Shown one piece after another: positions 51,900 to 53,828 of a DNA stretch of 64,000 nt. Where the stretch lies: NCBI RefSeq assembly GCF_014596745.1, contig NZ_JABTCF010000006.1, positions 124,001-188,000 on the forward strand, given 5' to 3'. Origin of the DNA: Maribacter aquimaris (GTDB lineage Bacteria > Bacteroidota > Bacteroidia > Flavobacteriales > Flavobacteriaceae). A program made the position numbers and the translations under genes. Below the pieces are notes generated by a model. It searched no databases. It was given only the letters and a program-made list of their open reading frames with translations, and was not told where the DNA came from. Numbering within the stretch: position 1 is the first letter of the stretch; the number at the start of each line of letters is the position of its first letter.

Positions 51900-51922
51900 T
51901 TAACTATAATATAAGGAACGCC

Positions 51923-52315
51923 ATGCAAACGAAAAAAGACATAAAAAATAGGGAAGATGTTTCCTTGTTGATAAACACCTTTTATAAGAAAATACGGAAG
52001 GACGAAATACTAGGACCTATCTTCAACAACATTATTTCGGACTGGGATGCCCATTTGGAGTTGCTGACCGATTTCTGGGAAACACAATTGTTCCTTAAGC
52101 GGAAATACTATGGCAACCCTGTAACCGCACATCAGGAAGTAGACGACAAAACAAACCATACCATTTCATCCGAGCATTTCGGTTTTTGGCTAAACCTTTG
52201 GTTTGAAACCTTGGACGAATTATTTGAGGGGGAAACTGCCTGGGTTGCCAAGAACAGGGCCCAAAAAATGAGTACTATGTTATTCATGCAAATGTATCAA
52301 CATCGGAAAAAGTAA
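51923..52315 (+). CDS. group III truncated haemoglobin
   Basis: A 130-residue heme protein of the 2-over-2 fold. The proximal His is His85 in SSEHFGFWLNLW, with Tyr21 at the distal B10-like position, Trp52 in DFWETQLF and GPIFNN at the AB loop. The frame stays open to 51788, but that extension is basic, has no match to the family, and crosses an inverted repeat; ATG at 51923 gives the normal length. Group III proteins are linked to nitric oxide or oxygen handling, in line with the RIC gene that follows. Confidence 0.85.
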   Translation: MQTKKDIKNREDVSLLINTFYKKIRKDEILGPIFNNIISDWDAHLELLTDFWETQLFLKRKYYGNPVTAHQEVDDKTNHTISSEHFGFWLNLWFETLDELFEGETAWVAKNRAQKMSTMLFMQMYQHRKK

Positions 52316-52395
52316 TCTGCCAATTTCAAAATACCCCTCCTCGCATAAAACTTTTGGACAGCCATTCATGCTACACAAATTTTAATTCGGATATT

Positions 52396-52426
52396 TTTGT
52401 CCTATTTAAAAATAATACTATCTTTG
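52396..52426 (+). promoter_or_regulatory. Bacteroidota-type promoter of the RIC leader
   Basis: TTTG at 52396-52399 and TATCTTTG (TAnnTTTG) at 52419-52426 are separated by 19 bases. Transcription should start near 52432, giving a leader of nearly 190 bases before the ATG at 52620. Confidence 0.7.
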
Positions 52427-52582
52427 TACAGGTCTGGATTAAGGAAGTGCAATGCCGACAAACCGTGGAAACGTGTTGACCTACGATGCTGGGTAATAAA
52501 TCAACACACGAACCCCGAGGGAGGGCTTAAGCTATAAAAAACCAAATCATCTTAATCTTAAATAGGACAATTTTATCCTATT
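52397..52582. promoter_or_regulatory. operator-like inverted repeats around the RIC leader
   Basis: TTGTCCTATTTAA (52397-52409), lying between the -33 and -7 elements, is a perfect inverted copy of TTAAATAGGACAA (52558-52570). The downstream copy is also one half of a second palindrome, with arms AATAGGA (52561-52567) and TCCTATT (52576-52582). Three half-sites of the same motif in one regulatory region suggest binding by a dimeric regulator and perhaps DNA looping. Confidence 0.6.
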
Positions 52583-52619
52583 CAATCATAAAACAGTCAA
52601 AAACAAAATCAAAGCTATC
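52432..52619 (+). ncRNA. structured 5' leader of the RIC gene (candidate riboregulator)
   Basis: The leader can fold with an outer helix GATTAAG (52437-52443) to CTTAATC (52551-52557) and an inner helix GTGTTGA (52473-52479) to TCAACAC (52501-52507). The inner loop is conserved-looking (CTACGATGCTGGGTAA), and a GC-rich segment ACCCCGAGGGAGGGC follows. This is unusual in an AT-rich spacer. It does not match a riboswitch class that I can recall. A 14-codon ORF starts at 52452 and ends at TAA, so a leader peptide is an alternative. Confidence 0.4.
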
Positions 52620-53351
52620 ATGGAAAATACACTTAAAACAAACATTGGCGAAATAGTGGCCGAAGATTATCGAACCGCGCAAGTCTTTAAAGCGCACAAT
52701 ATAGACTTCTGTTGCAGGGGTAACAGGAGTATACAGGAAGTGGCCGAAAAAAACAAACTGGATGCGGATAAACTATTCAAGGAGATTGAGGAGGTATTGA
52801 ATCAAACCCATGCCGATACTATTGATTTTAAATCATGGCCCTTGGACCTACTTGCCGACTATATTGAGAAAAAGCACCATCGCTATGTAGAAAAACAAAT
52901 TCCCGTATTAAAACAATTCTTGACAAAGCTATGTCAGGTTCATGGGGAACGCCACCCAGAACTATTTGAAATTAGCGATCATTTCACGAAGTCCGCTGAT
53001 GAATTGACCAAGCACATGAAAAAAGAAGAGTTAGTGGTTTTCCCTGCCATACGCAAAATGGTAAAAGCCACACAAAACGCCAGTGTTTTGGACAACTTTC
53101 ATTTTGGAACCATTCAAAATCCAATCCAGGTGATGATGCAGGAACACGATAATGAAGGTGAACGATTTAGGCAAATAGACGCCTTAAGCAACAACTACAC
53201 CCCTCCGGCAGATGGTTGCACCACATACAAAGTAGCATTTTCGTTGCTCAAAGATTTTGAAAATGACCTACACAACCATATTCATTTGGAAAACAACATC
53301 TTATTTCCAAAAGCTGAGGAATTGGAAAAACAATTGGGCGATCCACGATAA
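52620..53351 (+). CDS. ric: iron-sulfur cluster repair di-iron protein (RIC/ScdA/YtfE)
   Basis: A 243-residue protein that repairs iron-sulfur clusters damaged by nitric oxide or oxidants. The N-terminal ScdA domain has Cys31-Cys32 in NIDFCCRGNRSI. The hemerythrin-like four-helix domain carries His and Glu ligands in IEKKHHRYVEK, HGERHPEL, HMKKEELVVFP, MQEHDNEGERF and NHIHLENNILFPKA, forming the di-iron site. A long structured leader precedes it, and a second hemerythrin-type gene follows after 15 bases. Confidence 0.94.
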   Translation: MENTLKTNIGEIVAEDYRTAQVFKAHNIDFCCRGNRSIQEVAEKNKLDADKLFKEIEEVLNQTHADTIDFKSWPLDLLADYIEKKHHRYVEKQIPVLKQFLTKLCQVHGERHPELFEISDHFTKSADELTKHMKKEELVVFPAIRKMVKATQNASVLDNFHFGTIQNPIQVMMQEHDNEGERFRQIDALSNNYTPPADGCTTYKVAFSLLKDFENDLHNHIHLENNILFPKAEELEKQLGDPR

Positions 53352-53366
53352 AGGCCATACGAAAGG

Positions 53367-53828
53367 ATGAAAACATCACCCATAAAAAGGAGTAAGGCAT
53401 TAATGCCGGTAAGTCGTGACCATCATTACGGCTTACTCCTTTGTTATAAATTACGGACTGGCTTCAGTAAGAACATAGCCCCTGAAAGAATGAAACGGTA
53501 CACCGATTGGTTCTTTAAAACGCACCTCATACCCCATTTTGAGGTGGAGGAAAAATACATTTTCCCCATTTTAGGCAACCAACATGAACTGGTAAAAAGA
53601 GCAATTTCGGAACACTGCGCAATGGTTGGTCTTTTTGAAAATACCCATGACATTGAACTATCGTTGCATCAAATAGAGGAAACCTTAAAACAACATATAC
53701 GTTTTGAAGAACGTGAATTGTTCAATGCCATAGAAAAGGTCGCCACCCAAGCCCAACTAGCTTTAGTTGCTGAATTTCATAAAGATGAAGATTTCATAGA
53801 CAACCAAGACGATCCTTTTTGGGAATAA
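53367..53828 (+). CDS. hemerythrin-domain protein
   Basis: A 153-residue four-helix protein. The His/Glu ligand pattern is visible: PVSRDHHYGLLLCYKL, HLIPHFEVEEKYIFPIL, ISEHCAMVGLF and QHIRFEERELFNAIE. These match single-domain hemerythrins that bind a non-heme di-iron centre and react with oxygen or NO. It is co-transcribed with the RIC gene, so it probably serves NO or redox defence. Convergent with the 129-residue hypothetical gene. Confidence 0.88.
   Translation: MKTSPIKRSKALMPVSRDHHYGLLLCYKLRTGFSKNIAPERMKRYTDWFFKTHLIPHFEVEEKYIFPILGNQHELVKRAISEHCAMVGLFENTHDIELSLHQIEETLKQHIRFEERELFNAIEKVATQAQLALVAEFHKDEDFIDNQDDPFWE

Follow-up and report, generated by a model that had tools for sequence, protein, structure and literature searches.

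A decayed rrf2 gene as the likely source of the leader in front of the RIC iron-sulfur repair gene of Maribacter aquimaris

In Maribacter aquimaris the gene for the iron-sulfur cluster repair protein RIC is preceded by a long, GC-rich leader and by repeats that mirror one another, and the question raised by this locus is whether such a leader is a new regulatory RNA or the trace of something older. The window analysed here is a stretch of 64,000 nucleotides (contig NZ_JABTCF010000006.1, positions 124,001 to 188,000), and unprefixed coordinates below are counted from its first base. Taken as a whole, it is very probable that the leader is a dead rrf2 gene, that RIC now stands behind the promoter of that gene, and that an intact paralogue elsewhere in the genome most likely represses RIC in trans. 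The best reading of the locus is thus a modest piece of regulatory evolution and not a new RNA. What seemed to be a novel RNA becomes a case in which a local repressor would have been lost and its promoter captured by its target, with the operators kept.

Promoter, leader and gene order at the RIC locus

The features on which the argument depends are the following.

51923..52315, plus strand: group III truncated haemoglobin gene, the upstream neighbour (phmmer match to 2ig3, E 1.4e-14)
52372..52426, plus strand: putative former rrf2 promoter region (alignment to the sequence upstream of rrf2 in L003)
52386..52405, no strand assigned: candidate operator O1 (TTCGGATATTTTTGTCCTAT), over the -33 element (pattern upstream of rrf2 in relatives)
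52396..52426, plus strand: predicted promoter, TTTG at 52396-52399 and TATCTTTG at 52419-52426 with 19 bases between (from the sequence)
52431..52545, plus strand: probable relic of the 3' end of rrf2 (~58 codons), shortened and frameshifted, which now forms the RIC leader (alignments, profile)
52562..52581, no strand assigned: candidate operator O2 (ATAGGACAATTTTATCCTAT), in the rrf2-RIC spacer (pattern in the spacers of relatives)
52620..53351, plus strand: RIC, ScdA/YtfE-type iron-sulfur cluster repair di-iron protein (TIGR03652, Pfam ScdA_N and Hemerythrin)
53367..53828, plus strand: second hemerythrin-domain gene, 3' of RIC (Pfam Hemerythrin, 37.6 bits)

The product of 52620-53351 scores 241.1 bits against TIGR03652 (cut-off 204.7), which places it among the RIC/ScdA-YtfE proteins. 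At E 0.001 the haemoglobin gene matched nothing in Pfam or NCBIfam; the globin proteins encoded beside rrf2 in two other genomes of the genus are 88% (G001) and 81% (G003) identical to its product. We take the TTTG at 52396-52399 to be a -33 box which, with its spacing to the -7 box, presumably fits a flavobacterial sigma-A promoter. For the -7 box of flavobacterial sigma-A promoters, PMC9723704 gives TAnnTTTG. Because RIC starts at 52620 and the predicted transcript start lies near 52431, the leader would be ~189 bases long; an earlier sequence-only reading had proposed a promoter followed by a leader of nearly 190 bases, and both the boxes and the length bear this out. The GC-rich blocks that it had thought unlike their surroundings are equally real, with 47% GC in 52431-52545 vs 24% in 52546-52619 and 31% in 52316-52430. 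This GC-rich leader reads as decayed rrf2 coding sequence, and the promoter points the same way: aligned over 56 columns, 52372-52426 and bases -78 to -23 of the intact rrf2 of L003 share 91% identity. At least this block is matched in 7 of the 12 genus genomes, counting the one that contains the window; in G007 the match reaches only E 5e-4.

The comparison with relatives covered the best 80 of 466 confirmed RIC relatives, taken from genome contigs. At 51 of these 80 loci, fewer than 100 bp separate RIC from the end of an upstream Rrf2-family open frame, which is 144 or 145 codons long in 49 of the 51 (163 in L064, 148 in L076), and at 17 more rrf2 lies further upstream. A motif search found no rrf2 upstream of RIC at the other 12, which include the Maribacter polysiphoniae locus that has the window's leader (L002) as well as two loci with short upstream DNA (L021, L029). 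The order globin - rrf2 - RIC - hemerythrin protein is seen in G003 (L156), in G001 (L157) and at L004, where the hemerythrin gene follows RIC as it does in the window; at L005 and L031 no globin gene lies within the stretch seen. The window itself retains the full order globin - RIC - hemerythrin gene with rrf2 missing, and its nearest relative, M. polysiphoniae, likewise has no rrf2 gene before RIC. A separate observation concerns the position directly upstream of RIC, which is occupied by a small Cupin_2 gene at L031:2701-2994 (tested with Pfam) and, by eye, by a small cupin-like gene at Arenibacter loci such as L008; a cupin gene beside RIC recalls nsrT in the Thermus nsrRST cluster.

One operator in two copies and the probable remains of rrf2

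The mirrored repeats were first described as a 13-base sequence between the -33 and -7 elements with a perfect inverted copy downstream, and as a second palindrome with arms AATAGGA and TCCTATT. Both are present, the former within an imperfect inverted repeat of 34 nt (52382-52415 with 52552-52585, 76%) and the latter at 52561-52567 and 52576-52582. The perfect inverted 13-mer is half of one operator recurring in the other. Since the O1 pattern is found before rrf2 and the O2 pattern in rrf2-RIC spacers, a single palindromic operator accounts for both mirrored repeats, with copies at 52386-52405 and 52562-52581 whose centres are 176 bp apart, and it is the operator side of the sequence-only reading that holds. 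Within the same best 80 RIC relatives, the O1 pattern occurs upstream of rrf2 at 31 of the 51 loci in its strict form and at 35 in a looser one, several of the misses being a single base off (e.g. AAGACAATTTTGTCC), and the O2 pattern is found in the rrf2-RIC spacer at 46 of the 51; the looser O2 pattern appeared in none of 10200 shuffled spacers. What lifts the operators above chance is that relatives have them in the same two positions. In L002, O1 departs from the window's copy at 1 of 20 bases and O2 at none of 20, with 1 difference in the 38 bases after O2 and 5 in the 70 before O1; the low divergence of the two operators, and the identity of O2 in both relic genomes, may reflect constraint, in samples too small to prove it.

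Between the operators, 52431-52545 aligns with the last 40% of rrf2 (global alignment, last 58 codons). The 3' part of rrf2 was tested alone, with 10 genes chosen from 67 and then with all 67. Over the 10 chosen genes the window relic has a mean score of -13.0 against -44.9 (sd 5.5) for shuffles, and 0 of 500 dinucleotide shuffles reached it; the L002 leader scores -22.6 against a shuffle mean of -49.7, again with none as high. Random segments of the window never scored as high as the relic (0/2000 with the same 10 genes, 0/400 with all 67), and against a profile of 66 rrf2 genes the window and L002 leaders each stand above 1000 of their own shuffles. Recognisable scraps of Rrf2 persist in SGLRKCNADKPW (intact: CGLGLKECNADKPCP), LGNKSTHE (intact LENTSLYE) and EGGLKL (intact EVGLTYL). 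Other results count against a relic: blastn of the leader alone is marginal (33.7 bits, the best of 500 shuffles reaching 32.8), single distant rrf2 genes are matched as well as by the window in up to 38 of 500 shuffles and as well as by L002 in up to 147 of 500, and whole-region global alignment to L003 and L004 sets the leader on the 5' part of rrf2. With L005, L007, L083 and L091 the same procedure places it over the 3' part, where O2 is also in register. Comparison of the window's relic with that of L002 shows 14 differences in 133 aligned bases and two gap columns; at four-fold sites the two genomes differ at 6 of 72 in RIC and at 7 of 33 in the globin gene, and the relic drifts at about the silent-site rate.

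An intact paralogue, a proposed history and its rivals

The genome that contains the window (G000) has four Rrf2-profile matches, three of them over cut-off, and one, G000:C3:81126-81557, is of the kind found next to RIC. This paralogue belongs to the Rrf2 family by both Pfam PF02082 (86.7 bits, cut-off 30) and TIGR00738 (87.9, cut-off 73.3), and carries three cysteines spaced C-x6-C-x5-C (GCGLGLKECNANKPCP) in a predicted Fe-S loop. Matches of at least 72% to it occur in 6 of the 12 genus genomes: G001, G002, G003 and G010 have the close copy at RIC, and only G000 and G004, both of them relic carriers, have it away from RIC, their paralogues being 94-100% identical to each other. The remaining matches in the genus are at most 40%, and G007 has none. 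A second, more distant Rrf2 gene (G000:C24:192743-193138, L084) lies ~4.7 kb past the end of the window, matching the C3 paralogue at 31% and divergent from a gene that, by eye, resembles a c-type cytochrome gene; it may belong to a nos cluster, since Rrf2 genes are reported by PMC6264515 to occur in clade II nos clusters.

The operator was then sought genome-wide with a strict pattern, WWNGGAYAWNNWTRTCCNWW, and its reversal as control. An initial version matched at 10 sites (reversed control 5) but overlooked one of the paralogue's flanks; its palindromic successor was chosen after those flanks had been inspected. In G000 (4.86 Mb) the strict operator occurs at 6 places (control 3), namely O1, O2, both flanks of the paralogue, one intergenic spacer and one site inside an open frame, and in G004 four of five matches lie at RIC and the paralogue (control 4). 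G003 has one match, at RIC (control 1), G010 two, both at RIC (control 2), and G002 four, one of them at RIC (control 5); G001, which has an intact local copy, has three, none at RIC (control 2), the sites at its RIC locus deviating from the pattern. These counts are hardly above the reversed control, and the positions alone carry weight. A fifth operator-like site of G000 (C1:104400-104419, L148) sits in the spacer separating two genes that look unrelated, and G004 retains it (C12:75869).

On one side the paralogue is accompanied by a gene for a small protein without a Pfam match and by a 2Fe-2S ferredoxin-domain gene, and on the other by a phage-integrase-family gene ~0.9 kb away (L154:9124-11676, G000:C3). 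The surroundings are possibly the edge of a mobile island; a tRNA search around the paralogue found none. In G001 and in Maribacter sp. ACAM166 (L031), two similar small genes come after RIC and the hemerythrin gene. The tree joins the trans copies to L031 (90/93); another group unites the local copies of L003, L004, L005 and G001 (94/91). The simplest course, on moderate tree supports, would be that a trimmed cluster was acquired and that the redundant local gene was lost afterwards, and we infer that acquisition preceded local decay.

The syntenic loss of the gene, the relic, both operators and the paralogue with its own operators can be read from the sequence, and a plausible history joins them. 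The ancestral order would have been globin - rrf2 - RIC - hemerythrin protein, with O1 over the rrf2 promoter and O2 between rrf2 and RIC. In an ancestor shared with M. polysiphoniae an internal deletion would have taken roughly 60% of rrf2 from its 5' end, start codon included, the remaining sequence would have drifted, and RIC would have come to lie behind the old rrf2 promoter and a non-coding leader of ~189 bases, with both operators kept. The C3 paralogue, which has the same operator on each of its own flanks, would now act on RIC in trans as a repressor, bound at O2 and at O1, where it would cover the -33 element. Damage to its predicted Fe-S cluster by NO, or through iron or oxidative stress, would release it; a response to NO is proposed because its target would be RIC. 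The intact paralogue beside the integrase gene is thus the likely replacement regulator, and GGAYA-N4-TRTCC offers a concrete and testable candidate operator for the control of RIC in Flavobacteriaceae.

The rival that survives best accepts the relic as described and holds that no trans regulator is at work, so that the operators are leftovers and RIC is constitutive. This rival can point to the putative status of regulator binding, to the small number of genomes (two) and to the one base at which O1 differs between them; yet both genomes keep the paralogue whole and flanked on each side by the same operators, and we consider constitutive expression unlikely. Doubtful to a greater degree is that the body of the relic has been reused, either because the length of the leader sets a loop or roadblock between two operators or because a core at 52483-52527 acts in the RNA. 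That core, a stretch picked afterwards, is the same in the window and L002 at all but one of its 45 bases, and if reuse were true RIC would have a control that its relatives lack.

The same core could be cited for a structured RNA that responds to NO or iron and owes nothing to a dead gene, as the sequence-only reading had suggested, together with the long leader and two perfect seven-base helices (the outer 52437-52443 with 52551-52557, the inner 52473-52479 with 52501-52507), both of which do exist in the sequence. A cmscan run over 51900-53000 at E up to 10 gave one chance match inside RIC and no Rfam family in the leader, in keeping with the earlier remark that it resembled no known riboswitch. 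The leader folds without excess stability (z 0.10, with 101 of 200 shuffles folding at least as well), L002 loses 3 of the 14 proposed pairs, with both helices hit and none compensated (in a comparison of two sequences only), the leader is found at RIC in only 2 of the 12 genus genomes searched, and its sequence is explained by rrf2 homology; such an RNA is highly improbable. A translated leader peptide attenuating RIC from 14-codon frames at 52452 and 52488 has next to no chance and was rejected: both frames are open in the window and the second is still open in L002, but the first is shifted and cut short there, and the second has another ending and resembles the Rrf2 scrap LGNKSTHE vs LENTSLYE.

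Relation to known regulators

In the literature on Rrf2 or NsrR in Bacteroidetes and Flavobacteria no study of this RIC operator was found by title, and a search by title on orphaned operators gave general papers only. A 2026 preprint (PMC13370916) describes a nitrite-responsive RNA locus in Bacteroides that concerns hcp, and no link to the RIC leader was found in the portion of the preprint consulted. NsrR regulons with ytfE or dnrN (PMC1274295) resemble the present locus in their Rrf2-family repressor, palindromic operator and RIC gene target; that paper reports such regulons from gamma- and beta-proteobacteria, from Bacillus and from Streptomyces; for dnrN in Bacteroides fragilis it names HcpR. 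The NsrR motif it gives is gATGyAT-N5-ATrCATc, which O1 and O2 do not fit. The paralogue reaches 33.8 bits with the NsrR equivalog NF008240 (cut-off 182) and scores higher with the SUF-regulator and IscR models. It is not filed as NsrR because it falls short of the NsrR cut-off, its operators depart from the NsrR consensus and the SUF and IscR models score higher. Likeness to IscR and SufR is seen in its best solved-structure match, IscR 4hf2 (E 1.1e-6), and in its best equivalog matches, although it stays below the cut-offs for IscR (59.1 of 207.55 bits) and the SUF regulator (65.9 of 110.65 bits).

In Thermus thermophilus the nsrRST cluster consists of nsrR, then the ScdA-domain gene nsrS, then nsrT (PMC5748679). 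As described there, it shares with the Maribacter relatives an Rrf2/NsrR gene followed by an ScdA-domain (RIC-type) gene, the same palindrome before nsrR and nsrS, and a cupin gene in the cluster, as at L031 (Cupin_2). The Thermus cluster differs in having an intact nsrR and the palindrome CTTGACCNNGGTCATGG, whereas here the local gene is a probable relic and the operator is about AATAGGACA-N4-TATCCTATT. Among documented arrangements, nsrRST is the nearest to this locus.
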